DNA from: a virus
Strand: one strand, 5' to 3'
Virus record (IMG/VR): IMGVR_UViG_3300021963_000441
Span: 1 to 31,559 of that record
Length of the DNA stretch: 31,559 nt
The position numbers were made by a program, and so were the translations under genes. The notes below the pieces were generated by a model. It did no database searches. It worked only from the letters and a program-made list of their open reading frames with translations, and was not told where the DNA came from. Every line of letters begins with the position of its first letter. Within the stretch, counting starts at the first letter, position 1. Below, piece by piece: positions 6,014 through 31,559 of this stretch.

Positions 6014-7228
6014 TTAAATCGGTGTAACAACTCCTTGTTCTACCGGTGCGTTTTCTACTATGTCTGGAGCTGTGGTTGGATCTGCAACGCCTGGGAATAA
6101 TGAAATTGGTTCCACAGATAATGTTGATTTACCTCCCATTAACTTCCAAAGTCTGTTAACTGGTTTTAGTAAAGTACGAGTGTCTGGAATAACTACCATG
6201 TTTTTAAACAGCTCATATTCAATAAGCAGTTCGTCCTTCGTGGAATTCTTAATTCCTCCACCACCTGCTAATTCGTAAATACCTGTAATCTTAGGTGATG
6301 TAATGCGATGGGCAGAAAGAATACGTGTAGTAATTCTTTGTTCCAATTGTATGTAGTAATCATCTCCAACTGGTTGAATTGTTTGGACTTCTGTTTGTGT
6401 GTCTTTCGATTGATTGAAAGATAGAAAAAATTTACCGGCGTTCTGAGTTCCAGAAAACGATGATGCAATTTCTTCATAGATTTGTTGACGTTGTATGTCA
6501 CCAGGATCGCCCTGGTTCATATTAATAATCATACTTGGAGTTAGTCCCTGCTTAAGATGACTAAGATGGTAAGAACTGACTTCAATATCCACGGAAATGT
6601 CCGTCATTCCACCCGAATAACTAGGGAGGGGATAATGCACTTGCGAAGGCTCGTGTTCGAAAAAATAAAGTAACTGCGAAGGAAATTCCTTAGCAGCATT
6701 AGGATCGTATCTATGATACGCTCTGGGCTTGTATTCTGGTTTCTTAAAGCGAGACCAATCTGAACTTACCCAATAATATTCTACACGATCTGTGTCTTTA
6801 TCAATGGCACCAGATCTAACTTTGTTAAAGTCTACGTGATAGATGGCTGCAATTCTTGTTGCATCATTTGACCATACTATATTTAAACAAAATCCATTAT
6901 AGATTTCGTAGTCGCCTACAATATTAGGCCACAGTTCATTCCATGATTCTTCTGGATTTGCTTGTTCTAATAATCCCAATTCGCTAGGATCGGATGGCAC
7001 TAAACCATTACCCGTAACTGCAATCTTCTTACTTAATAAAGCAGTACGATTGATTGCTGATTTGGAGTAAAGTTCAGTCACAAATTGTGGATACAGATTG
7101 TCAATCCCATAGTTTATCCATTTGCCTTCTGGACCTTTTGATTCTAGTGCTGTTGGTACACTCGGATCAAAGATCTTATCAAAGCGATAGAATAACTTGT
7201 TTTTGTTTTCTGCGTTTTGTTCTGACAT
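6014..7228 (-). CDS. Portal protein
   Basis: This 404-residue protein resembles phage portal proteins: an N-terminal part with WINYGIDNLYPQFVTELYSK and INRTALLSKKIAVTGNGLV, a core with ELWPNIVGDYEIYNGFCLNI, and a C-terminal part with KNSTKDELLIEYELFKNMVV that fits the stem/crown region. Portals form a 12-subunit ring at one capsid vertex, through which terminase packages DNA and to which neck proteins attach. It sits between a small conserved protein (7253-7504) and the connector. The length is slightly shorter than the 450-500 residues common in the family. The terminase gene is far away, at the right end of the window. Confidence 0.8.
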   Translation of the reverse strand: MSEQNAENKNKLFYRFDKIFDPSVPTALESKGPEGKWINYGIDNLYPQFVTELYSKSAINRTALLSKKIAVTGNGLVPSDPSELGLLEQANPEESWNELWPNIVGDYEIYNGFCLNIVWSNDATRIAAIYHVDFNKVRSGAIDKDTDRVEYYWVSSDWSRFKKPEYKPRAYHRYDPNAAKEFPSQLLYFFEHEPSQVHYPLPSYSGGMTDISVDIEVSSYHLSHLKQGLTPSMIINMNQGDPGDIQRQQIYEEIASSFSGTQNAGKFFLSFNQSKDTQTEVQTIQPVGDDYYIQLEQRITTRILSAHRITSPKITGIYELAGGGGIKNSTKDELLIEYELFKNMVVIPDTRTLLKPVNRLWKLMGGKSTLSVEPISLFPGVADPTTAPDIVENAPVEQGVVTPI

Positions 7229-7518: not shown

Positions 7519-9795
7519 TTATAATGCTGAATGCGATACTTTCTTCCATGCTGTTCCGTCATAAAATGCTATGACATGATCTGTTGTTGAGTACATCATC
7601 ATACCTTCTACTGGAGAAGTAATTGCTAGAATGTTTGCGGTGGTATCATTTTTAAGGATAAACGGATTGTAAACATAACCTGCTGTTGCACCATCAAATT
7701 TCATTCTTAAGTTACCTTGACCGTCTGCAAGATAAATCTGATTACTACCAGTGGCACTAAATGTGGTAGGATTAGAAAACTGATCTACCTCATTACCGAT
7801 GATGACGTTAAAGTTACCAGTAGTAATACCTCCAGTTGCAGAAGAGTAGTTACCTAATTGAATGTTACCAGAACCATTAGTGATATTATCTCCTGCTCCG
7901 TAACCTACTCCGATGTTATTAGCACCAGTAGTGTTAGTGGTTAAAGCTAAATAACCGAAAGCAGTATTGTTGTTACCACCGGTCATTGATTTTAATGCCT
8001 GATAACCAACTGCCGTAAATCCAGAACCAAGACTTGCTGTGTTAGCAGAAACTGCTTGATAACCAATAGCAACACCACCAACAATATTATTCTGTCCAGC
8101 AGTTGCTCCTATTGCTTGATAACCAATAGCTACTGAACCAGTTCCTCCTAGCCTACCTGCTGCTTGGTTTCCAATAGCAACTGCTTGATTAATTAAAGTG
8201 CTTTGAGCCATTACTGAACCAATTCCTACGTTTTGAGAACCTGTTGTGTTAGTAAATAATGCTGAAGCACCAATTCCTATATTTTGAGCACCTGTAGTGT
8301 TAGATTGTAATGCTTGAGCACCAATAGCAAGGTTAGCACTACCAAAAGTGTTATTTTGTAATGCTAAGTTTCCTAAAGCCGTGTTACCACTACCTGTAGT
8401 GTTGGTGTAAGCTGCAGAAGCACCAATAGCAAAGTTTTGAGCACCTGTGGTGTTTGAAAATAAAGCATTAAATCCTATTGCAAGATTGTTATTTGTTGTG
8501 TTAGCATATAGAGCATTATTACCTAAAGCAGTATTTCTTGCTCCGGTAGTGTTAGTAAATAAAGCGGATTCTCCTATTGCTAAGTTATTGGTACCAATAG
8601 TTGTAGAATTTGCAGCTTGATAACCTACAGCTGTATTTGAAGTTCCAGTAGTGTTGGATGTTAAAGCTTGCCAACCAAATGCAGTAATATTTGATGCTTG
8701 GTTTGTTCTACCTGCTCTATACCCTACTAAAGTAGAATTACTATAGTTATTTAAAGAACCTGTATCTACTCCAACTACTACGTTTTGACTACCTGTACTT
8801 ATTCCAGATCCAGCTACCCAACCGACAAAAACGTTGTTAGATGCTGAAGTTGCATTATAAGCTGTTGCTACTCCAAGTCCAGTATTGTATGCTCCAGAAG
8901 TTAAAGAACTTAAAGCTAATTCTCCTACTGCTGTATTTTCTTGTCCGGATAAACTCGCAGAAGTTAAAGCGGAAGCTCCTACTGCTGTGGTACGGTAAAT
9001 GTTATTTTGCTTACCTATTTCTACACCATTAACAGTAATGATTTGTCCATCATAAGTAAAGTTGGCTTGTCCATTAATAACCCCTGATGTACCACTACCA
9101 GTAATTACATAACCAGAAACGTTGTTATTAATAGTCGCACTCACACCTGAAGAACCTGAAGAACCAGACGATCCTGAAGAACCAGATTCACCAGACGAAC
9201 CTGAAGAACCAGATTGACCAGACGAACCTGAAGAACCGTCCATGCCTGAAGTGCCTGATGAACCGTTCGCCCCAGAAGAACCAGAACTACCAGAAGAACC
9301 AGACTGTCCAGAACTACCAGATGACCCGTTAGCTCCTGAAGAACCGGATGAACCGTCCTGTCCTGAGGTGCCGGATGACCCGTTCTGCCCGGAGGTGCCT
9401 GATGAACCGTTCGCTCCTGAAGAACCAGAGGAACCAGAGCTACCTGAAGAGCCCGAGGAACCTGTACTACCAGACGATCCTGAGCTACCGGATGAACCGT
9501 TGGCTCCTGAAGAACCAGAGCTACCTGATGATCCGTTCGCTCCTGATGAACCAGAGCTACCTGAAGATCCTGAGCTACCTGAAGATCCTGAGCTACCACG
9601 AGTTCCTGAAGTACCCGAGGTGCCTGCTGTACCAGAACTTCCGAAGATAACAATTGTTCCTTCGTGGTCTTGTGCTTTTAACACTCCCCCTTGGGAATAT
9701 AAACTCACATAACCAAAATCTGGTGGTGCTGGATCTGTGTTGTTCTGTCCGAAAAGGATTTCGCCTTCGCCTTGTATTTTTAATTTTCCGCTCAT
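7519..9795 (-). CDS. Trimeric fibre: collagen-like stalk plus beta-roll head repeats
   Basis: This 758-residue protein has four parts. Residues 1-51 (MSGKLKIQGEGEILFGQNNT) look like a virion-attachment segment shared with the paralogue at 10365. Residues 52-218 are uninterrupted Gly-x-y triplets, mostly GSS, GTS and GAN without proline, a collagen-like triple helix. Residues 262 to about 690 hold many copies of a 17-residue repeat (pattern N-T-A-x-G-x-x-A-L-x-x-N-T-T-G) typical of YadA-like head beta-rolls. The C-terminus (EGMMMYSTTDHVIAFYDGTA then WKKVSHSAL) is a cap often seen on phage fibres. It probably forms a host-contacting or capsid-decorating trimer; which virion part it joins is not shown. 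Confidence 0.85.
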   Translation of the reverse strand: MSGKLKIQGEGEILFGQNNTDPAPPDFGYVSLYSQGGVLKAQDHEGTIVIFGSSGTAGTSGTSGTRGSSGSSGSSGSSGSSGSSGANGSSGSSGSSGANGSSGSSGSSGSTGSSGSSGSSGSSGSSGANGSSGTSGQNGSSGTSGQDGSSGSSGANGSSGSSGQSGSSGSSGSSGANGSSGTSGMDGSSGSSGQSGSSGSSGESGSSGSSGSSGSSGVSATINNNVSGYVITGSGTSGVINGQANFTYDGQIITVNGVEIGKQNNIYRTTAVGASALTSASLSGQENTAVGELALSSLTSGAYNTGLGVATAYNATSASNNVFVGWVAGSGISTGSQNVVVGVDTGSLNNYSNSTLVGYRAGRTNQASNITAFGWQALTSNTTGTSNTAVGYQAANSTTIGTNNLAIGESALFTNTTGARNTALGNNALYANTTNNNLAIGFNALFSNTTGAQNFAIGASAAYTNTTGSGNTALGNLALQNNTFGSANLAIGAQALQSNTTGAQNIGIGASALFTNTTGSQNVGIGSVMAQSTLINQAVAIGNQAAGRLGGTGSVAIGYQAIGATAGQNNIVGGVAIGYQAVSANTASLGSGFTAVGYQALKSMTGGNNNTAFGYLALTTNTTGANNIGVGYGAGDNITNGSGNIQLGNYSSATGGITTGNFNVIIGNEVDQFSNPTTFSATGSNQIYLADGQGNLRMKFDGATAGYVYNPFILKNDTTANILAITSPVEGMMMYSTTDHVIAFYDGTAWKKVSHSAL
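7795..8995 (-). repeat. 51-bp-period coding repeats (beta-roll) of fibre 1
   Basis: About two dozen degenerate copies of a 17-codon unit encode N-T-A-V-G-Y-x-A-L-x-x-N-T-T-G-x-x. The repetition is obvious in the protein and visible in DNA as recurring TTACCTAAAGC and CCTGTAGTGTT words. Such arrays can expand and contract by slippage. Confidence 0.8.
9139..9640 (-). repeat. Collagen-like Gly-x-y coding repeats of fibre 1
   Basis: About 165 codons of perfect Gly-x-y triplets. The 9-bp periodicity leaves long open frames in the other reading frames of both strands, which are artefacts of the repeat. Confidence 0.85.
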
Positions 9796-9804
9796 TGCTT
9801 ATAA

Positions 9805-10365
9805 TTAATTTAATGTAAATTGTATTCCTTCTTCAATCAATAAGAATCCGTCTTCTTCAATAGTTAGAGGTTGACAAACATTGGTTGTAGGAACTTCGAT
9901 TATATATGGGGAGTTAGCATAGTTAATAAAACAACTATTAAGAACTCCTGAATAGTAAATTATGTTTTGGAAAGTCTCATTATCTGAAATGTAACTAGTA
10001 AAGAAAACTTCAGGTGGAGAATAACTTGCCATTATCATCTGACCTTCGTCGATTAAAATACCTTCACTAGGATCTAAAGTAGCTGTATCTAAATTCCAAC
10101 ACTTGTAAGAATAATTACCTGGCGGAAAAATAGAAAGTATACCATCAAACGGATCGTCAGGAGTACCTTGTTCTACAACATCTAAATTGAATTGTACAAA
10201 TCTAGAGTTACGCTTTATGGTTGTAGGAATAACATAAGTCCAATGATTGGTATAAGTACTCTTAAATCCAATCAAAAAATAATCACCAAACTGCTGTACT
10301 GAATTATCAATAGTATCAGCATAAATTGCAAACTCGTTAACCGCTCCTACACTTAAATTTATCAT
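9805..10365 (-). CDS. Small virion protein of unknown function between the two fibres
   Basis: This is a 186-residue beta-rich protein that begins MINLSVGAVNEFAIYADTID and ends with EEDGFLLIEEGIQFTLN. Internal stretches such as SIFPPGNYSYKCWNLDT are reminiscent of small fibre-associated or neck-associated proteins of Bacteroidota phages with a pattern P-x-G-x-Y-x-Y. Its start codon overlaps the last base of the preceding fibre gene, and the second fibre follows after 9 bp. The position suggests a fibre adaptor or decoration protein; this is inference. Confidence 0.65.
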   Translation of the reverse strand: MINLSVGAVNEFAIYADTIDNSVQQFGDYFLIGFKSTYTNHWTYVIPTTIKRNSRFVQFNLDVVEQGTPDDPFDGILSIFPPGNYSYKCWNLDTATLDPSEGILIDEGQMIMASYSPPEVFFTSYISDNETFQNIIYYSGVLNSCFINYANSPYIIEVPTTNVCQPLTIEEDGFLLIEEGIQFTLN

Positions 10366-11924
10366 TATGTACTTAGTAATAATTTGTATGTGGTACCGCC
10401 AATTACAATCGGAAGATAACGATTAGAATCTGTAGTAGTTGCTGTAACAATTGCAGCACTACTTATATTAAGATTCGTAAGAGCAGAAGCATAGAGTATA
10501 ATTCTATCATTACCAGTAGGAGCTCCCCCTGTTACCCCGATGATAATATTACTATTTTCTGTAGTAATAGCAGATCCTGCATTAAATCCAATTAGAATAT
10601 TATCAGTTCCTGTTGTAACACCACTTCCTGCACCATAACCAATAGATGTATTTTCATCTGCAGTGGTATTAGCAACTAATGAATTATAACCAACTGCTGT
10701 GTTATATCTTCCTGTGGTATTAGCTCCTAATGAATTATAACCAACAGCTGTATTACTATCTCCTGTAGTATTTGCTTGTAAAGCTAAAGAACCTACTGCT
10801 GTGCAATAATCTCCTATAGTATTAGTAGTCATTGCAAGATTTCCGACTGCAGTATTTTGAAATCCTAATGTGTTAAATTCTAATGCTTGATATCCAAAAG
10901 CAGAGTTGCCCGTAGCACCCGTAATACTTTTTAAAGTTTCAAATCCAACTGCTGTGTTATTACTTCCTGTAGTATTTGCAGACATTGAACTATGACCAAT
11001 AGCAACATTATTATCTCCAATAGTTGTAGCCTGTAATGCATTATATCCAACAGCAACATTATTATCTGCACTAGTAGCAACTCTTAAAGCATAAGTACCT
11101 ATTGCTGTATTGTAATTTCCTCCACCAGTAGCTGATAAAGTTGAATCTCCTAATGCAACATTATAGTTTCCAAAACCTGCACCCATTGAATTTGCTCCTA
11201 CAGCTGTATTTGATATAGAAAGAGATTGGGATTTCAGTGCATTACTTCCTATTGCTGTATTATTACTTCCTGTTGAATTACCGTATAATGCAAAATTTCC
11301 TACACCTGTATTATTACTTCCTGTTGCATTAACATATAATGCTTCAGTTCCTATTGCCGTATTATTGCTTCCTGTGGTATTAACAGCTAAAGTAACATAA
11401 CCATAAGCTGTATTACGAGTACCAATTGTGTTAGAACCTAAACTAGCTAAACCATAAGCTGCATTAAAAGCTCCAGTTGTGTTGTTACTTAAAGCAGATC
11501 CATTAACTGAGCCTGCTAAGTTAGATGTTACGTTTCCAGCACCATAAGTTAAACCTGCTCCTGAAGAACCTGACGTTCCTGCACTTCCTGAGGTTCCTGA
11601 GGTTCCTGAGGTTCCTGAAGAACCTGAACTTCCTGAACTTCCTGCACTTCCTGAAGAACCCGAAGAACCGCTACTTCCGCTAGATCCTGGACTTCCTGAA
11701 CCTGATGTTCCGCTACTTCCTGATGTTCCAGATCCTCCAGTTCCTGAAGTTCCTCCTGCACTTAAAACAGTGATTGCACCTGAATCATCCATTAAACGCA
11801 ACTGCTTGTCAGTTCCATAATAAAGTGATCCATAGCCAGTCGCTGGTGTTCCAAGCCCAGATGTGCCACTTGTCGAGAAAAGTACTTGACCTCCTGTTGC
11901 TCCTAATTTTAATGTTCCTGACAT
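10365..11924 (-). CDS. Second collagen-like/beta-roll fibre, paralogue of 7519-9795
   Basis: This 519-residue protein has the same plan as the longer fibre: N-terminal MSGTLKLGATGGQVLFSTSG, a shorter Gly-x-y region (residues 55 to about 126, GSSGTSG-type), then beta-roll repeats (for example NTAVGYNSLGANTTGRY) to about residue 460. The C-terminus differs (RYLPIVIGGTTYKLLLST) and would make a different tip or cap. It is the first gene after the terminator that follows the tail tube gene and has its own promoter-like box 23 nt upstream. The two fibres may bind different ligands or form one branched fibre. Confidence 0.85.
   Translation of the reverse strand: MSGTLKLGATGGQVLFSTSGTSGLGTPATGYGSLYYGTDKQLRLMDDSGAITVLSAGGTSGTGGSGTSGSSGTSGSGSPGSSGSSGSSGSSGSAGSSGSSGSSGTSGTSGTSGSAGTSGSSGAGLTYGAGNVTSNLAGSVNGSALSNNTTGAFNAAYGLASLGSNTIGTRNTAYGYVTLAVNTTGSNNTAIGTEALYVNATGSNNTGVGNFALYGNSTGSNNTAIGSNALKSQSLSISNTAVGANSMGAGFGNYNVALGDSTLSATGGGNYNTAIGTYALRVATSADNNVAVGYNALQATTIGDNNVAIGHSSMSANTTGSNNTAVGFETLKSITGATGNSAFGYQALEFNTLGFQNTAVGNLAMTTNTIGDYCTAVGSLALQANTTGDSNTAVGYNSLGANTTGRYNTAVGYNSLVANTTADENTSIGYGAGSGVTTGTDNILIGFNAGSAITTENSNIIIGVTGGAPTGNDRIILYASALTNLNISSAAIVTATTTDSNRYLPIVIGGTTYKLLLST
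10535..11470 (-). repeat. 51-bp-period coding repeats (beta-roll) of fibre 2
   Basis: The same 17-codon unit as in fibre 1 (N-T-A-x-G-x-x-x-L-x-x-N-T-T-G) occurs about eighteen times. Together with the preceding collagen-like tract at 11546-11762 it makes most of the gene repetitive. Confidence 0.8.
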
Positions 11925-14339: not shown

Positions 14340-16442
14340 TTAATTTTCTAATATTTTCATGACTTGCTCAATCATGGTTTTGTCTTTTTGGAGGTCTTCG
14401 TAGTCTTCTTTGTCGATGAAGTTGCCTTCAAGACTGAATCCTTTGAACTTTCCTTCTTTAACTCCTTGCCAGATTTCTGGATCTTGGACTCGCATTTTAA
14501 CGGCCCAGCTTCCTTTTGGAAGAGCGAGATTATAAACTGTATTGGCTTTATCAGTTTTAGGATCTTCGACAATCCAACTTTCAAATACGTAAGAATTTGC
14601 ATTTTGTTTTTCATTATGTTCAATGTTTGTGTCCCCAATTCTTAATTCCTTCATGAATTTTTCTTGCATTCTTTGGATGGTTGCTTCAGAAAACTTCACA
14701 TAATAAACTTCACCAGTTTCTTCGTCTCTTCTGATGATTTCTATATCAGGAATAGCTACCGGTCCTACTACAATTTGCTGGTCTTTTTCCAGAGCAAAAG
14801 AGAATTTGCTCATAGACTCAGAATGTTTAGGGTGTGATTTAGGTAACAAATCATTGTCTTGTGTGTAGTCTTTATCAGATGGTGCAGATCCAGATAAGAT
14901 CTTTAGAAAAGCATTTACTCTGCCCATTGCCCATTGACTACGGGTCATGCCTTTTCTGCCTGGTGTACCAACAGAATAAGCACCCGCTCCTCTACGCCAT
15001 ACTGCTTTTAACATTCCAAGATCAGCTTTTTGGCTATCTTGTGGATTCTTTTCGTTGTGTTCTTTGATCTTATCTTTTAGTGAAGATTCTACTTCTTGAG
15101 ATACTTCGATACCACCTCTGCTTGTTTTGGTATCTCCTGGTTCATTTTTTTCAGATCCAGTTTTACCTCTTTCTTCTTCAGGTATTCTTGCTATAGGTCT
15201 TTCAGCAAATGCCTCTGCCTTAATCGGTACACAGTTTGGTGTTCCGTCTTCTTTTAAACCATAAGCTTCATATCCTTCCCAGCATGGATTTTTTTCTAAA
15301 AATTCTTCTTCTAGTATAGGTCCGCCAGCTATCCAAGCGTCACAAGTTCTAGCAGCTGCACATTTAAAATCAAATGCTTCGCAATAACCTAACTCTCCGG
15401 CTTGGATTGCATCGTAAGGATCTGCGAGGGCTTCCTCACCAATTCCAGCTGCAATACATGCTAACATAGATTTAGTACGCACAAAGAAACCGCAATTTCC
15501 GCAAGTTGCTGATTTAGCATCCTTAACAGTGGTATTAAACTTATCTGCTTTTGCTTGCCAATATTCTTCATTAGGTTCACTAGGATTAAGCGGTCCGTAA
15601 TTTGCTTGTTCTATTGCTTCTTGGCGGTTAGCCAGATTAAGTTCTATATCTACTGTTGCTTCTGGACAACCGTATTCATTAAACTTACGTTTCTTTTTTT
15701 GGGTTTGGTCAACATAAGGAGGTAAACTAGATGTGTCATAACTCATTTTTTCGCGAATGCTTTCTAGTTTGTTTTGTGCCCATTCGATTCCTGCTTGTCC
15801 TCCCCAGGCATCTACCATTAAACCCCCACATCCTTCAGAATATGGTACGTCTTTATTCTGTAAATGTCTAGCAAAACTTGCCATACGGGCAATTGTTTCT
15901 TCTGAAATAGCTTCTCCATTTGCTAATTGGTTAGCTCTTGCTTTTCCAACTGGTGTACCGCAATCACCCCAACCATTTTTTTCAGCCCAAGCTAAAGCTC
16001 GCTTAGCAGCATTTTTAGCACTTTCTGGGTAGTCAGTATAAGATTCGAATTCCATTGTTTTCATATTAGCACGAATCCATCCGCAAAGTTTATCTGCAGA
16101 TTCTTGATCTAGTCCTCTTGCAAGTTGATCGTCTATGCACTCGTCCCAAGGATATTCTGCTAATTTTACAGACTTATGTTCCTCTCTCCAAGTAGAATAA
16201 CAAATAGCAGCAGCTTGATCTTGATCGTAACCTTCGTCACCTACCAATACACCTATACAACGAGGAATGTAATCGTCTTCACGTTCTCCGGATTGTGGCT
16301 TAACAAAAGCGTGTTTCTTCATGTAAACCCAGAATTTTTCAATAGCTGGATCTTGCACTAATGCTACTGCAGATACACCACTGTCTTCCACATCATCTAT
16401 TAACTCCAGTTCAATTACTCTCTTTTCCTTGTTTTTCTCCAT
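14340..16442 (-). CDS. Mosaic prohead protease (XkdF-type C-terminal domain)
   Basis: This 700-residue protein is a string of small domains. The N-terminus (VSAVALVQDPAIEKF) is the usual start of XkdF-like proteins. Two Cys-containing segments follow (PRCIGVLVGDEGYDQDQAAA and YPWDECIDDQLARGLDQESA). Residues 137-232 (ESAKNAAKRALAWAEKNGWG to AGIEWAQNKLES) and 310-370 (CGNCGFF to RTCDAWIAGGP, Cys-rich) are modules I recognise from Bacteroidota phage head genes. Residues 475-540 (MLKAVWRRGAGAYSVG) resemble DUF5824. Residues 545-690 are the XkdF-type serine protease, with His609 in IEHNE and Ser670 in GFSLEG as likely catalytic residues. It would process scaffold and capsid in the procapsid; the extra modules' roles are unknown. 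Confidence 0.78.
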   Translation of the reverse strand: MEKNKEKRVIELELIDDVEDSGVSAVALVQDPAIEKFWVYMKKHAFVKPQSGEREDDYIPRCIGVLVGDEGYDQDQAAAICYSTWREEHKSVKLAEYPWDECIDDQLARGLDQESADKLCGWIRANMKTMEFESYTDYPESAKNAAKRALAWAEKNGWGDCGTPVGKARANQLANGEAISEETIARMASFARHLQNKDVPYSEGCGGLMVDAWGGQAGIEWAQNKLESIREKMSYDTSSLPPYVDQTQKKKRKFNEYGCPEATVDIELNLANRQEAIEQANYGPLNPSEPNEEYWQAKADKFNTTVKDAKSATCGNCGFFVRTKSMLACIAAGIGEEALADPYDAIQAGELGYCEAFDFKCAAARTCDAWIAGGPILEEEFLEKNPCWEGYEAYGLKEDGTPNCVPIKAEAFAERPIARIPEEERGKTGSEKNEPGDTKTSRGGIEVSQEVESSLKDKIKEHNEKNPQDSQKADLGMLKAVWRRGAGAYSVGTPGRKGMTRSQWAMGRVNAFLKILSGSAPSDKDYTQDNDLLPKSHPKHSESMSKFSFALEKDQQIVVGPVAIPDIEIIRRDEETGEVYYVKFSEATIQRMQEKFMKELRIGDTNIEHNEKQNANSYVFESWIVEDPKTDKANTVYNLALPKGSWAVKMRVQDPEIWQGVKEGKFKGFSLEGNFIDKEDYEDLQKDKTMIEQVMKILEN

Positions 16443-16473: not shown

Positions 16474-19173
16474 TTAGATTTTTGCCAAATCCTGAAGCTT
16501 TTTATTGGCTTCTTGCTGACTAGTCATTTCAGATGCTACCACATAAGTTTTAACAATAGGCATTTGCTGTGCTGCCATTAATTCCTTAATAGAATCCATT
16601 GTAGGCATCATACCACCATTAGCATACTTTCTATTACCAACTGAATTTATCGCGCTTAAAAGCGGCATAAATGATTGAGTAGAACGTTTATTTACTACGT
16701 ATTCGCCACCTTCTAATTCGCCGAATCTAGTCTTTATGCCCCCTTGTGCATGGGAAGGACCAGACAATACTCCACCTTTTGCAAATTTAGTACCTACTCC
16801 AGCATTTGCATTGCTAGATCCAGTGTCTGAAATTGTACTAGTGTAAGTAGTTGCATCAATTTTTTTCACGTTTGCTAAACCAGCAACAATTGCTGCCGCT
16901 GCTGCAATAGCACCAAGAACAGGACCAACAACTGGAATAGCAGCCATAGCAGCATAAGCTGAAACTGCTGCTTGGAATGTGGAAATATAGGCTTGTGCTT
17001 TTTGTGCACCCTTTTGTTTATAGAAATACTTTTCATTTATTTTATCTTGCTCAATAGCAAGTTTTTCTTTATCTTTAATAGTTGCTTTAGCATTTTCTAA
17101 TTCTACAGTTTTGTTGGCATCTTGAACTGCTAGTTGTGCATCTGCGACAGATTTAAATGCATCAAATCCTTTAACAATAAAACCTAAAACTTCATTAAAT
17201 TCTTCTTGTCTTAATTGTTTATTTAGGGCTGCATACTTTTTACGGATAGCTTCCTTCCTTTTTTCAAGATCTTCTGTGACTTGAATTTCTTTTTCAGCAT
17301 TTAAAAGTTCTTGATTTAGTGAAGCATCTAAAATTGCTTTACGGTTTTCATAATAAGCTTTTGTACCTTGTACTAGACCTTCTGCTTGAACTTGTAAAAG
17401 TTTAAGAGTCTGATCTAATTTTTTAGCAGCACTATCATCTGCAATTTGTTCTTTTACTACCTCTAATGCTTTTTGATTTGTCTCTCTAAATTCTGCTAAC
17501 TTTCGATTAATTTCTTCTTGGGTATAACCTAAAAGTTCTTTAGCTTTATTTAATTCTTCTTCGTATTTAGTTAAACGATCTGCAGCTTGTTTTTCTGCTT
17601 GTTGTGTTCTTTTGTCAAATTCATTTTTTACTGTTTCTAAAAGTTCAGAAGATTCTTTTTCTTGTAAAGATTTTTTAAGATCTGTTTGTTGTTTTATTTT
17701 ATCTGCTGCTTTTTTATCAGCTTCTTCTTTATCTCTTACTTCTTGTTCTGAATATTTTTTTCTAATTTTTCCAAGTTCAATTTCTTCAGACTCTTTTAAC
17801 TGTTTAGTGTCTTCTCCAAATTTAACTGCAAGTACATATAATTTAGCGTATTTTTCGCTTACTGCATATTCTTCTTTTTCTTGATCTGATAAAGTAGCTA
17901 AAAAAGCATCCTTTTCTCCTTTTTGTAATTCTTCTAAATCTTTTAATCTATCTGCATTTGCTTTTCTTGTTTTTTCTCTACTTTTTTGATTTTGTTCTTC
18001 TTGTTTTTCTAATTGTTTGTTAAAGTAGTCAGCTCTTAATTCTCTTAATGCTATTAGTGCATCTGCATCTGCAGTTTTAGCATCTTGAAGTGCTTTTTCT
18101 GTTTCATTTTTTAATTCTCTTGCTGCTTTAATGTCTTCTTCTTTTGATTTTGTATTTGATAAAACTTGATAATTTAATTTTGCTTTATCAAATTCTTGTT
18201 GTCTTTTTAAAATATCTTGTTCTGTTCTTTTTCTTGCAATAAAAGCATCACTTTCTAGTTGTTTAAAAATCTCTTCTTCGGATGCTCCTCGCTTTTTTAA
18301 TTCGGAAATTCTTAACTTGTTTTTTCTTTCTCTTTCCTGAGCAGCAAGATCTTCTTTTCTTTTGGTTTCTGAAATAGCTGCATTTAACTTATCAGTTTCT
18401 GTAGTGGCTTCTTCTGTCTTTGAAATATAATCGGTAATGTATCCAACTACTGCGCTGATAGCAATTGCAAGACCAACAAAAGGAAGAGCTGCTAAAGCAG
18501 CTGCAAATATTCTTGTAGCTATTGTTGCTCCGGTAGTAACAACAGTTTGTGTTGTAATTGCTCCTGTAGTAGTTTTAGATGCTGTTCCTTGTGCATTAGT
18601 TGCAACAGCAGCATTAGCAGTTGAAGTAGCTAATGCTTTATTACTAGCATCTGCAGCTTTAGTAGTTTTAGTTACACCTTCTTGTGCAGCTTCTGCAGCT
18701 TTTTGGGCTGCAACTTTTACTCTTTCTGCTTGAGAAATACTTAATAAAACTTTTTCGTATACTTTATTATAACCAATAAAGTTTAAAAATCCTGAACCTG
18801 CTTCTTTTACATCTTTTAATAACCCAGTAAACTGTGCACGTAATTCAGTAGTTTTTAACGATCCAAGTAATTTAAAAGAATCAATAGTGGTGTTTAGTTT
18901 ACTACTAATTTCTCCAATAGGTCCTGGAATAGCAGATAAAGTACCATAAATTTCTCCCGCAGCCAATTTGGTACGATCCATTGCATCTTTAGTATCATTT
19001 AATTTTTCAACTAAAATTTGATACTTTTCAGAACCAACCTGACCAGCTGCTTGCATTCTATTTAACTCTTCAGTTAAAACTCTTACCTGTTGTGCAAGTC
19101 TCGTAACCTCACCACCAGCAAATTTTACTTCTTTGGTGTTAACGTCTACTTCTACTGAAATTTTTTGTGCCAT
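16474..19173 (-). CDS. Tail tape measure protein
   Basis: This 899-residue protein has long charged coiled coils over about residues 250-690, two hydrophobic segments (about 221-248, FAAALAALPFVGLAIAISAV; about 735-770, AAIPVVGPVLGAIAAAAAIV) and the C-terminal motif common in such proteins (FAKGGVLSGPSHAQGGIKTR and LEGGEYVVNKRSTQSF). A tape measure sets tail length, fills the tube and is released into the cell during DNA entry, the hydrophobic segments probably inserting into the membrane. At roughly 1.5 angstrom per residue, 899 residues imply a tail of about 130-140 nm. Tail-tip genes lie upstream and head genes downstream. Confidence 0.9.
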   Translation of the reverse strand: MAQKISVEVDVNTKEVKFAGGEVTRLAQQVRVLTEELNRMQAAGQVGSEKYQILVEKLNDTKDAMDRTKLAAGEIYGTLSAIPGPIGEISSKLNTTIDSFKLLGSLKTTELRAQFTGLLKDVKEAGSGFLNFIGYNKVYEKVLLSISQAERVKVAAQKAAEAAQEGVTKTTKAADASNKALATSTANAAVATNAQGTASKTTTGAITTQTVVTTGATIATRIFAAALAALPFVGLAIAISAVVGYITDYISKTEEATTETDKLNAAISETKRKEDLAAQERERKNKLRISELKKRGASEEEIFKQLESDAFIARKRTEQDILKRQQEFDKAKLNYQVLSNTKSKEEDIKAARELKNETEKALQDAKTADADALIALRELRADYFNKQLEKQEEQNQKSREKTRKANADRLKDLEELQKGEKDAFLATLSDQEKEEYAVSEKYAKLYVLAVKFGEDTKQLKESEEIELGKIRKKYSEQEVRDKEEADKKAADKIKQQTDLKKSLQEKESSELLETVKNEFDKRTQQAEKQAADRLTKYEEELNKAKELLGYTQEEINRKLAEFRETNQKALEVVKEQIADDSAAKKLDQTLKLLQVQAEGLVQGTKAYYENRKAILDASLNQELLNAEKEIQVTEDLEKRKEAIRKKYAALNKQLRQEEFNEVLGFIVKGFDAFKSVADAQLAVQDANKTVELENAKATIKDKEKLAIEQDKINEKYFYKQKGAQKAQAYISTFQAAVSAYAAMAAIPVVGPVLGAIAAAAAIVAGLANVKKIDATTYTSTISDTGSSNANAGVGTKFAKGGVLSGPSHAQGGIKTRFGELEGGEYVVNKRSTQSFMPLLSAINSVGNRKYANGGMMPTMDSIKELMAAQQMPIVKTYVVASEMTSQQEANKKLQDLAKI

Positions 19174-24445: not shown

Positions 24446-26089
24446 TTAAATATTTTGCATTGACTGTTCTGTACTAAATTCTAGAGTGAAATTAGCAGTG
24501 AATAGTTTTACTTGTTTAATAGTTTTAACTGTGTAAGATTGTTCGCTTACTTTACAAGTATATGGGAAATCTTCTTGTCCGATGTAAACCCAAGTCTGTG
24601 GACTCATGACAATTCCTTTTAAAAATTCCACTTGTTCTTGGGTTAAAAAATCAGAAGTGATTTGCCACTTTCTTTTTACCGCTTTGTTGTATTGTCTTAT
24701 ACCACCCTTTAACCAATTCTGTGTCGTGTCGTTAGACAGAACTACTGGGGTAGTAGAACTCCAATCAACTTCTGTTTGATAAAAATCTTGTCCAGTAGAA
24801 TCTACAGTTTCTTCTGCCTTCATTGTAAAATTCCAATAGTCTCTACCACCTAAGGAATTTAACCATACTACTCTTGCACGAGGATACAAGGTAGAGTAAC
24901 AATCTTCAACAATATCAATAGTTAATATTTCAGAAACAGAAACTGTTGGTGAACCTGTGTAACCACAACTTCCAGTAACGTTTAACTGATCGAAAAGTTG
25001 GACTGTGTAGTATTCTGGGATTTGTCCTAAACTTGTAAATATTCCTTGATCGTCTAAATCTTTTGGGCCAACTCTTAGTGATAAAAATTCTTTATTAATT
25101 AAAGTAGAATAAGAACCAGTACCGCTTGTTGTAATAGAATCACCGCAAGAATATCTAGGACCTCCACCAAGTGGATTATCGTTATTATCTACTTCGTAGT
25201 TTCCAACTATGTGTTCTCCAATATAACCAGTTGCAGAATAGAAATTAAACCAAGCAACTTTAGGTGCTGTCGATTGTAATAAACTTCCAGTTCCGTATGT
25301 TTCATACACTGGATTACGATTTAAAAATGTAACAGCGTAACGATCATAATCTAAAGCTTCTGCTGAAATATTATAACTAGGAGAAGCAGAAGTGGTTTGC
25401 CAAGCACCTCCAGTAATGGATCTCGGTGCTTCAGAAAGAAAAAGTCCTGGACCACCACAAGTAGATGGAGGAAGAATGGAATTATTTTTTAACACATAAG
25501 GTGCCATGTAACCAAAAATTCCATAATAGTTACCAAGACTGACTGTTGTAGGATCTTGTACAGTTGGCATTTGCACTTGCAAATGTGCTTGCTGTTCTTG
25601 CCAATTTAAAGAAGCTGGTAAACAAATAACCGGAAGAATATCGTTGTCATCTGTTGGATCTAAAACATCATAAAAAGTTTGTGAACCTAATGGATAAGCA
25701 GGATTACCCGGATCGTTTGTAATACCTTCATAAACTTGAATCGCTCCACCAATAACAGTACGATATTGTTCTCCTGCATAAACCTTTATATTGCAAACTG
25801 CATTAACTCCCATTTTCCAAGGTTGTGAACTAGGCACACCTACTTCATTAGCAAAGTCTCCAATTTCTAAATATGGATCTACCATCGAACTTACATCGAG
25901 CATACCTGCACCAGCAGGATTAGGTCGTTGAATAAAACGATTAATGTAAACACCATCGACGTAAACATCGAACACGTATGAAAAATCAAAGATTGTTGTG
26001 AGTTGTGCTTTATCACTAGTCACAGACCAAATAATAGGATTGTATCCTGGAGAATAAAATTTTGGTCTAAAGTTTACTTGTGTAATCAT
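24446..26089 (-). CDS. Distal tail (baseplate) protein
   Basis: This 547-residue beta-rich protein starts in an ATGA overlap with the tail chaperone gene and is followed 1 bp later by the 1439-residue tail-tip gene. N-terminal SPGYNPIIWSVTSDKAQLTT and DVYVDGVYINRFIQRPNPAG, and C-terminal GGIRQYNKAVKRKWQITSDF with LTQEQVEFLKGIVMSPQTWV, match tail proteins that in Bacteroidota phages sit at this place and end with a domain linking the tube to the tip. The exact role (distal tail ring versus baseplate wedge) cannot be told from sequence alone. Confidence 0.65.
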   Translation of the reverse strand: MITQVNFRPKFYSPGYNPIIWSVTSDKAQLTTIFDFSYVFDVYVDGVYINRFIQRPNPAGAGMLDVSSMVDPYLEIGDFANEVGVPSSQPWKMGVNAVCNIKVYAGEQYRTVIGGAIQVYEGITNDPGNPAYPLGSQTFYDVLDPTDDNDILPVICLPASLNWQEQQAHLQVQMPTVQDPTTVSLGNYYGIFGYMAPYVLKNNSILPPSTCGGPGLFLSEAPRSITGGAWQTTSASPSYNISAEALDYDRYAVTFLNRNPVYETYGTGSLLQSTAPKVAWFNFYSATGYIGEHIVGNYEVDNNDNPLGGGPRYSCGDSITTSGTGSYSTLINKEFLSLRVGPKDLDDQGIFTSLGQIPEYYTVQLFDQLNVTGSCGYTGSPTVSVSEILTIDIVEDCYSTLYPRARVVWLNSLGGRDYWNFTMKAEETVDSTGQDFYQTEVDWSSTTPVVLSNDTTQNWLKGGIRQYNKAVKRKWQITSDFLTQEQVEFLKGIVMSPQTWVYIGQEDFPYTCKVSEQSYTVKTIKQVKLFTANFTLEFSTEQSMQNI

Positions 26090-26880
26090 CCTACACTATT
26101 ATATTTTTCTAACTCTTGTGCTGCTTTCTTGTTCATTTCTTCTAATCTCGTTATACTTCCATACAAGGAAGTTAAAAGATTCTCGTACACCGAGTCGGGT
26201 TGCTCTGTCGAGTTCCAAAGGGTTTTGATCTGCCAGATTAATGAGGGTTTCGTACCAGTATATAGAAGGGTTTCTTGCGCTTCCTTTATCATTTGTCTCT
26301 GTTTTTTCTTCGGCAGGGTTAAATAAGTCTGAGTAAGACCTGCTGATGCTAGTCCGAAACACAAAAAAAAACTAATAGCGGATTTTGCGTATTTAACAGG
26401 TAGATCTAAAAATGTTTGTATTCTTTCTTTATAACTTTTAAATTCGTATGGTTCTATTTCATAACTGAATAAAGTGGTTTTAGTAATAGGACGATATAAG
26501 ATAGCTAATACTTCATGGATTTTTGAATCTGCTTGTTGTGATCCTAGAATAACATCTAAGTCTGCAAACTCTCCAATACTCATTTCGTCAAAATTTACTA
26601 GACCATATTTTACTCCGTTATAAGTAAACTTGTTAACCACATTTAGATCTTTTAATAAACTATTTGTTACCATGACCTCTAATTGTGCCCAAAGTTCTAA
26701 CCAATATTCGCCAGGAATTTTTTGGATTTCTTCTATGGGACAATCGCTTAATTTATTAAATAAAAAATACTTATCTTCTAAATTATTAACAATTAAATTG
26801 GTTTTAATGTCATAATAATTTCGAATTGTTAAGTCTTTAATTTCGTACTTTTTTTCTTCTACCTTAAATGTTATCGCCAT
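26086..26880 (-). CDS. Tail assembly chaperone, zero-frame product
   Basis: This 264-residue protein is mostly helical (for example NNLEDKYFLFNKLSDCPIEE and EVLAILYRPITKTTLFSYEI). Position between neck and tail-tip genes, plus a slippery run of nine T at codons 170-173 (S-F-F-L), identify it as the chaperone that coats the tape measure during tail assembly, as G/GT do in lambda. After the slippery site the zero frame continues for 92 codons to a TGA that overlaps the next ATG, so both downstream frames are long. Usually one of the two stops soon after the slip; here it does not. Residues 1-172 are common to both products. Confidence 0.72.
   Translation of the reverse strand: MAITFKVEEKKYEIKDLTIRNYYDIKTNLIVNNLEDKYFLFNKLSDCPIEEIQKIPGEYWLELWAQLEVMVTNSLLKDLNVVNKFTYNGVKYGLVNFDEMSIGEFADLDVILGSQQADSKIHEVLAILYRPITKTTLFSYEIEPYEFKSYKERIQTFLDLPVKYAKSAISFFLCFGLASAGLTQTYLTLPKKKQRQMIKEAQETLLYTGTKPSLIWQIKTLWNSTEQPDSVYENLLTSLYGSITRLEEMNKKAAQELEKYNSVG
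26099..26371 (-). CDS. Tail assembly chaperone, -1 frameshift extension
   Basis: A TAG closes the -1 frame immediately upstream of the T run. From there the frame is open for 90 codons (3 Phe codons, then VFRTSISRSYSDLF...), ending in TAA at 26099. A -1 slip at T-TTT-TTT gives 172 shared residues plus 88, about 260 in total. The extension contains SIYWYETLINLADQNPLELD and RESFNFLVWKYNEIRRNEQ, a helical pattern like the T domains of other Bacteroidota phage chaperones. The GTG at 26362 could allow separate initiation, but the stop directly before the slippery run argues for frameshifting. Confidence 0.62.
   Translation of the reverse strand, partial: FFFVFRTSISRSYSDLFNPAEEKTETNDKGSARNPSIYWYETLINLADQNPLELDRATRLGVRESFNFLVWKYNEIRRNEQESSTRVRKI
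26363..26371 (-). other. Slippery sequence for programmed -1 frameshift
   Basis: Nine T on the minus strand, read AGT-TTT-TTT-TTG in the zero frame; T-TTT-TTT is a canonical X-XXY-YYZ heptamer. A TAG in the -1 frame ends exactly at the run, and both frames are open for about 90 codons afterwards. No strong downstream pseudoknot is obvious by eye. Confidence 0.6.
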
Positions 26881-26882
26881 GT

Positions 26883-27299
26883 TTATTTTGTTTTAACTTT
26901 AACTGTGGATCCTATTTGATTGCCTAATTGAGCAGCAAGTAAATTAGCAAATGCTTTACCCTCTTCTTTTTCTATTTCATCTAAAATTTGCATCCATTGA
27001 GTTTGTCCAAAACTCATCCAGAATCTAGGTTTAATACCTCCATCTCCTACTCCTGGTTTAAGATTGTATTGTTTAAGAAGAGTTTGTTCGAAAGTTAAAC
27101 CGCTAGTTTCTTCTTCAGTTCCAAAATGTAGAAAGAAACCATAGTCAACTGTTTGTATGCGAAATCCATTATCGTTAACAGTAACTTGAGTTTGTTCTTT
27201 AAGAGAACCTGTTTGTCCGACCGGAGCTTGCGATTTTAGAATAGCTTCTAACTTTCTTGCTATTCGATTATATGCTTGGGTTAGTTTAGGATCTCTCAT
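26883..27299 (-). CDS. Neck / tail-completion protein, HK97 gp10-like
   Basis: This is a 138-residue protein. The N-terminal helix (QAYNRIARKLEAILKSQAPV) and the beta segment QTVDYGFFLHFGTEEETSG, followed by PRFWMSFGQTQWMQILDEIE, match the general pattern of HK97 gp10-like proteins, which complete the neck or tail end (Y-x-x-x-L/H-F/E-F-G). It lies between another neck-type gene and the tail chaperone, 2 bp from each. It ends with a Lys-rich tail. The precise ring it forms is uncertain. Confidence 0.65.
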   Translation of the reverse strand: MRDPKLTQAYNRIARKLEAILKSQAPVGQTGSLKEQTQVTVNDNGFRIQTVDYGFFLHFGTEEETSGLTFEQTLLKQYNLKPGVGDGGIKPRFWMSFGQTQWMQILDEIEKEEGKAFANLLAAQLGNQIGSTVKVKTK

Positions 27300-30757: not shown

Positions 30758-31559
30758 TTAGAACCCCAACAGATCAAACTCTTTAGACTTATGTCTAGCT
30801 CCAACCAGTACATAGCCCGAACTCGAACCGATTTGCATGCCTGTGCCGACTGCATAACGGATAGCATCCATGAGGTGACACCAATCATCTATCGGTTTGT
30901 CAGTGCCCGTGCGATAGGAGTAGTTATCGTATTCCACTCGCAGATTAAAACAGACTGGATCTGCATATACCTCATACGAACGGATGGCATCAATGCCGTT
31001 CCGAATACTGTCTGGTCCTTTGACAGCTGGACGAATATTGCGGAAGCCCAAACGTCGCAAAGTCTCGATACTCTTAGGCTCAGCCGAGTCCGCAATGATC
31101 GTAGCATTACTCGGAATGCCACGCTGTTGCATCAACCTGGCCAGATCCTCATTGATCAGACCAGTCTGGTAAATCACTTCTTGCAACCATAACCTACGAC
31201 CTTTCTTAGAGACCTTAATCACAGCTGAGGGATCGCGGGCAAAGCCAAAATCCACACCATAGATAACCTCAGCTTCCGGATCTGGATCATATTGCCATTG
31301 CCAATGGGTAAACACTTGTCCATCGTTAATGTCTCGCCACTGACCTAGAATGTGGTGCGCATAGTAATCAGGATCAGTGTCTTTTAACCTTTCCCATTCT
31401 TCCATTTTTTTAGGATCTAGATTGTGGGCATTGTCCTTGTAAGTGGTATGCAGATAACAATGATCTCCAGTCCACTTGGGATTAGGGGTACCATCAGGTA
31501 AGTAGAAGCGACGGAAGATCCAGTGGTTCTTAGCGGTCGGGTTAAAGGTCAGGAAGATC
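30758..31559 (-). CDS. Terminase large subunit, C-terminal nuclease part (5' end outside window)
   Basis: The frame is open from the right edge of the window to TAA at 30758, about 266 codons; the N-terminal ATPase half is off the window. The part present starts in the ATPase-nuclease junction (FLTFNPTAKNHWIFRRFYLP, then DHCYLHTTYKDNAHNLDP) and holds the nuclease. Its acidic residues are expected in VIYGVDFGFARDPS, TIIADSAEPKSIETL and WCHLMDAIRYAVG. This is the PBSX/T4-type large terminase that translocates DNA into the procapsid through the portal and cuts it. It is convergent with the + strand cassette and separated from the portal gene by over 23 kb. Confidence 0.92.
   Translation of the reverse strand, partial: IFLTFNPTAKNHWIFRRFYLPDGTPNPKWTGDHCYLHTTYKDNAHNLDPKKMEEWERLKDTDPDYYAHHILGQWRDINDGQVFTHWQWQYDPDPEAEVIYGVDFGFARDPSAVIKVSKKGRRLWLQEVIYQTGLINEDLARLMQQRGIPSNATIIADSAEPKSIETLRRLGFRNIRPAVKGPDSIRNGIDAIRSYEVYADPVCFNLRVEYDNYSYRTGTDKPIDDWCHLMDAIRYAVGTGMQIGSSSGYVLVGARHKSKEFDLLGF

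Follow-up and report, generated by a model that had tools for sequence, protein, structure and literature searches.

Two overlapping C-terminal reading frames behind a nine-T run in a probable tail-assembly-chaperone-like gene of an IMG/VR virus

The closest described system is the gpG/gpGT pair of phage lambda, in which two isoforms arise from one start: a shared N-terminal domain is followed by a slip site, a −1 shift at this site leads into a second C-terminal domain, and the gene is part of the tail gene module. In G/GT systems, G binds the tape measure protein and T the major tail protein, and the chaperone does not enter the virion. In lambda, ribosomal slippage is the demonstrated mechanism, and it is widely conserved among long-tailed phages (PMC5009743). 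In the annotated chaperones of actinophages (SEA-PHAGES), the slip site and the zero-frame stop are on average 26 nt apart (PMC10885494). Overprinted viral genes, in which one stretch encodes protein in two frames, are marked by stop avoidance and by suppressed synonymous change across both frames. In bacteria, a homopolymer of nine can also serve programmed transcriptional slippage, as on the A9 or T9 runs of Thermus dnaX, IS elements, and type III secretion genes. In the open-licence papers searched, neither an overlap like the one described herein nor transcriptional slippage of a tail chaperone is reported for any phage, and no case of such slippage in any phage tail gene was found.

The gene of interest is located on a 31.6-kb IMG/VR virus contig (IMGVR_UViG_3300021963_000441), here called the window and analyzed over its full length of 31,559 nucleotides. 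Its layout is that of gpG/gpGT, with a shared N-terminal domain, a slip site, a −1 C-terminal domain, two predicted isoforms from one start, and a position in a tail gene module. Unlike in lambda, the zero frame continues for about 94 codons past the slip until it reaches the next gene, slippage does not lengthen the protein, the slip site is a T9 run, and no sequence homology to the lambda proteins is detectable. With about 283 nt from slip site to zero-frame stop, the locus also departs widely from the actinophage average. It shares with the bacterial slippage genes the homopolymer of nine in the DNA at the frame junction. From overprinted viral genes it differs in that its two frames have a common N-terminus and are reached via one slip site.

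All features lie on the minus strand. The zero-frame ORF (26086–26880) encodes 264 aa from its ATG and would give the default product. Residues 1–172 (26365–26880) form the shared N-terminal part, which is conserved in all relatives; among these, GEF.D, R130, and FF are invariant, and the AF2 pLDDT for residues 1–170 is mostly 72–94. The run (26363–26371) is read AGT-TTT-TTT-TTG and contains the in-frame heptamer T_TTT_TTT at 26371–26365. In the −1 frame, a TAG stands directly 5′ of the T9 run, past which this frame is open for 90 codons up to a TAA at 26101–26099 (ORF 26099–26371) and encodes the slip product's C-terminal domain, which is helical and conserved. Past the run, the zero frame continues for 94 codons and ends with a TGA at 26088–26086, which overlaps the ATG of the next gene (24446–26089, 547 aa) as ATGA; its tail, residues 173–264 plus TGA, spans 26086–26364. 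The two stops are 13 nt apart, the 87 codons after the run (26102–26362) are read in both frames, and the predicted −1 product has 260 aa (172 shared and 88 of its own, including the peptide TLINLADQNPLELDR). A preliminary description of the locus, made from the sequence alone, had given the nine T, the TAG, both open frames, the product lengths, the 172 shared residues, and the gap of 13 nt, and all were exact to the base. It had also described the overlap as richer in G and C. This was confirmed both in the window (0.40 vs 0.28 in the 5′ part of the gene) and across 21 relatives (0.42 vs 0.35, Wilcoxon p 5e-6). An independent start of the −1 ORF was considered and rejected, as the GTG right after the run in the window is replaced by GTC, GCT, GGC, GAC, or GCA in the relatives. 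Gene callers report a single ORF of 264 aa at this place, and the conserved −1 domain stays unannotated.

Close relatives were not found with the window protein as query, nor did a tblastn search of this protein and of the −1 piece against annotated phages return anything useful. The probable major capsid protein and the next gene retrieved no annotated phage, and a scan of genome contigs gave no relative. With the next gene as query, seven contigs were found, six of which include the slip gene at 37–45% identity; in all six, the run is at nucleotide 509 of the gene as aligned, consists of nine T (ten in one), and is followed by two open frames. A profile built from these relatives retrieved 80 loci. 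In a tree of 47 non-redundant rows, 22 rows including the window, with 78–105 codons of overlap, form one branch with support 100/100, and the 25 rows of the sister side have overlaps of 24–67 codons. The long-overlap set was selected by openness; in the tree, every row of that branch has the property. Both frames remain open for 78–105 codons past the run in the window and 24 other IMG/VR loci (21 non-redundant sequences in all), and the zero frame extends 78–107 codons past the slip in the clade. Homologues with one conserved frame and the other full of stops, the contrary case named in the preliminary description, are absent, as 22 of 22 clade rows keep both frames. That description had also called the overlap unusual for a lambda-type system, which agrees with the earlier zero-frame ends both in the sister group and in the actinophages.

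Cultured phages are found in the short-overlap group, namely P12024L and P12024S (JQ823123 and JQ823122) of Nonlabens, presumably a host of the family Flavobacteriaceae. Their N part corresponds to phrog_32199, and P12024L has C-T9-A with a matching −1 domain. Both phages have the two pieces annotated as hypothetical proteins in their own right. In P12024L (JQ823123.1, 23946–24640; L106:3989–4683) these are genes _40 and _41, which look like one slippage gene with a −1 ORF readable from T9 onward. In-frame fusions of the N domain with a −1-type domain also occur, in the loci L087 and L143 and in three BFVD proteins (A0A516L611, A0A6J5MY57, and A0A6J5SVK3), indicating that the two domains belong in one chain. 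In L087 (3676–4449, 258 aa) and in L143 (near 1501), the T run is lost and both domains are in one frame.

An open frame of this length could arise by chance, or be simulated by an assembly error in the T run. Homopolymers are error-prone, and one locus (L084) reads T8 at nucleotide 496 of the gene where its close relatives L078–L080 show T9 with the same flanks; such an indel points to a misassembly or a broken copy of the gene, and the locus was left out of the tree for that reason. All other run-bearing relatives, however, have T9 or T10 in many separate assemblies, and the cultured isolate has T9. To quantify stop avoidance, the −1 protein was held fixed and synonymous codons were drawn from the genome's usage. 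Under this null, 5.2 zero-frame stops are expected in the window and none is seen (P of none 4e-4), and in the 21 non-redundant relatives none is seen vs 110 expected. The null is sound, since 201 stops are seen vs 181 expected in the sister group beyond its zero-frame stop. The third frame has 8–14 stops per sequence. Shuffling the codons of each sequence gave P 0.004 for the window and no significance in most others; this version is weak because codon choice is itself a trace of the double constraint. The comparison of relatives thus rules out a chance frame or assembly error, which we consider exceedingly improbable.

The preliminary description had proposed double constraint on the overlap and had suggested a comparison of synonymous sites in relatives. 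This comparison was restricted to fourfold sites of the −1 frame that follow C or G, where a change always alters the zero-frame residue and never makes a stop. Among seven independent close pairs, 31 of 121 such sites differ in the overlap (26%), compared with 86/169 (51%) in the shared part (p 2e-5) and 72/157 (46%) in the first 100 codons of the next gene (p 7e-4). The overlap therefore changes half as often, and this suppression, together with the missing stops, bears out the double constraint that had been expected. At larger distances the suppression is gone, the test being saturated among more distant pairs. In the sister group, with pairs that are non-independent, the difference is 0.216 within the short overlap, 0.463 beyond the zero-frame stop, and 0.462 in the shared part. 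Given that the suppression ends where the zero frame ends, and taking the other tests together with it, both C-termini appear to be under selection at the protein level.

A third test was based on similarity. The zero-frame tails resemble each other more than expected under a null that fixes the −1 protein and forbids stops (z 6.3, 5.0, and 2.9 in ever more distant pairs), and the matched control in the shared part gives z of about 0 or below. The third-frame control in the overlap is also above the null (z 1.9–3.0), making this the weakest of the three tests. It is near the acidic linker of the −1 product that this excess stands out most, as if each frame had the most freedom where the other is occupied. 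The −1 domain is conserved far beyond its own null, with z of about 45–49. A zero-frame motif, LTGxxG, was rejected as a conserved signal, as it equals FNWLAWK of the −1 domain read one base later; conditional nulls were used for this reason.

These tests also bear on the proposal that only the −1 domain matters, and that an open zero frame serves to carry unslipped ribosomes to the next start, for translational coupling or mRNA protection, with a tail sequence that is irrelevant beyond doing no harm. The zero-frame stops of the clade are found between −23 and +46 nt relative to the next ATG (as ATGA in the window), and the tail is poorly conserved and poorly predicted, in agreement with this idea. 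Yet stop avoidance alone cannot suppress fourfold changes that never make a stop, and these are halved; moreover, the zero-frame tails are more similar than under a null in which stops are already excluded. We regard this explanation as unlikely. Protein-level selection, as read from the sequence comparisons, is acting on both C-termini, strongly and anciently on the −1 domain and weakly on the zero-frame tail, which diverges fast and whose AF2 confidence is low (44–77). On balance, the tail would seem to have a function of its own, although we hold this with reserve.

How the overlap arose can be addressed by the tree. The −1 domain is common to both sides and the long zero-frame tail is present on one side only. 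The simplest history is that the tail is a clade-specific overprint on an older −1 domain, formed after an early stop was lost. The opposite history, with loss of a long tail on the other side, is conceivable on this unrooted tree. The simplest history suggests how overlaps may be born: a frameshift site is already in place, and the zero-frame stop that follows it is lost. The sister group, with homologous N and −1 domains and T9 at the homologous place, differs in that its zero frame ends 24–67 codons after the run and that its run is usually in the phase NTT TTT TTT TNN. The locus is a clean natural example in which ~270 bases specify two protein ends, each retained by selection, and the sister group acts as a built-in control.

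The run is nearly invariant in length. In the 47 rows it is T9 in 45 and T10 in 2, never T7 or T8; T9 is also present in 17 of 18 further loci, the remaining one being an in-frame fusion, and the dual-coding relatives have T9 at the same place except for one T10. Two codon phases are used. The first gives a small or polar residue, FF, and Leu (NNT TTT TTT TTG), and the second gives Val, Ile, or Leu, then FF and Tyr or Trp (NTT TTT TTT TAY or TGG). Some loci encode Ser after the run (TCG or TCA), again with nine T. In many bacterial genomes, selection against slippage-prone runs is seen at a length of nine (PMC1088944), and nine is also the figure given for transcriptional slippage in bacteria (PMC5009743). 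Pseudoknot-free folding of 34 relatives downstream of the run revealed no shared hairpin (z mostly −1 to +1, a few ≤ −2).

A ribosomal heptamer needs seven bases. The slip may be ribosomal, a tandem −1 slippage as in lambda G/GT for which T9 is merely a long slippery run: every T9 relative, whichever phase it uses, has the in-frame heptamer T_TTT_TTT (X_XXY_YYZ), the T9 plus G of the window clade contains two overlapping heptamers (also T_TTT_TTG), and the mechanism has its precedent in lambda and other long-tailed phages. This reading, to which we give a little short of an even chance, does not explain why nine is fixed in two codon phases or why nine is kept when Ser replaces Tyr after the run; a conserved downstream structure, usual for such sites though dispensable, was not found, and no obvious Shine–Dalgarno-like stimulator was seen on unscored inspection. 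Because nine exceeds the heptamer, equals the slippage threshold, and comes without a shared hairpin, transcriptional slippage is at least as good an explanation. From these sequence patterns, RNA polymerase slipping on T9 appears an evenly balanced prospect, and as independent changes of run phase are few in number, the inference about mechanism is suggestive only. Of the −1 frameshift in the preliminary description, the slip architecture is thus upheld; its ribosomal nature is less firm than claimed, since the fixed T9 fits transcriptional slippage equally.

The identity of the protein was approached from structure and gene order. Named chaperone families in Pfam, PHROGs, and PDB sequences gave no significant match, Pfam returned nothing credible for either piece, and Foldseek against the PDB was without significant match. 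Residues 81–174 of the N domain are weakly similar to the HK97 chaperone 2OB9 (Z 2.9, 81 residues aligned, rmsd 4.1), and BFVD entries named "Tail assembly chaperone" were matched at E 6.6e-3 with probability 0.96 and at E 0.087 with probability 1.00. The gene lies in the tail module, on the same strand as and upstream of the tape measure gene (16474–19173, minus strand; phrog_3336, E 5e-12), with three genes between, so that the usual adjacency is absent. The gene upstream of the slip gene (26883–27299, minus strand, 138 aa) has a weak match to the tail completion or Neck1 family phrog_5 (E 0.0011). As in G/GT systems, a slip site leads to a second C-terminal domain with a common N-terminus; the early zero-frame stop, usual in G/GT and not defining, is absent.

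Another head–tail or neck protein with a slip-made isoform would account for the missing sequence match to named chaperones and the weak fold similarity, and the P12024L homologue directly follows the terminase gene. The two-isoform architecture, the conserved helical −1 domain, the neighbours of the tail-completion and tape-measure type, and the BFVD chaperone matches argue against it, and we judge it improbable. Action as a G/GT-like tail chaperone is likely. Of the tail chaperone with two ends that had been proposed, the two-ended slip gene holds, and the chaperone identity is likely only, through architecture, location, and weak fold similarity.

Taken together, the sequence comparisons show that the frameshift gene is real and conserved and that its dual-coding stretch is unusually long; the arrangement is a variant of the G/GT chaperone layout. 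With good confidence, it can be read as a tail-assembly-chaperone-like gene with programmed slippage on T9 and two kept C-termini. Most decoding would stay in frame 0 and yield the 264-aa protein, and a fraction would slip by one base on T9 to yield the 260-aa protein. The latter would share its first 172 residues with the default product and then continue into another, conserved helical domain, which presumably corresponds to the "T" part of gpGT in lambda. In the clade, the zero frame would have lost its early stop and run to the next gene, so that ~90 codons encode two protein ends. More tentatively, and rather doubtful as a whole, a phage family whose cultured members have Bacteroidota hosts may set the ratio of its tail-chaperone isoforms by RNA-polymerase slippage on T9, with the whole −1 domain overprinted, in one clade, by a new C-terminus that is functional, such that both isoforms carry full-length, different tails. 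The fixed T9 raises the question of whether the chaperone ratio is set at transcription rather than translation in some phages, which a cultured phage could answer.

Other parts of the window have peculiar features as well. The gene order is unusual, as the portal protein (6014–7228) is at the far end from the terminase (30758–31405), and the genes for the capsid protease and the probable major capsid protein follow those for the tail and the tape measure. A 700-aa protein (14340–16442, minus strand) combines a long N-terminal part with a C-terminal XkdF-like protease domain (Pfam Peptidase_S78_2, E 2.3e-18). Two long proteins on the minus strand (7519–9795 and 10365–11924), with GSSGSSG/GTSGTSG repeats followed by NTTG- and NTA.G-rich repeats, are likely fibre- or adhesin-like.
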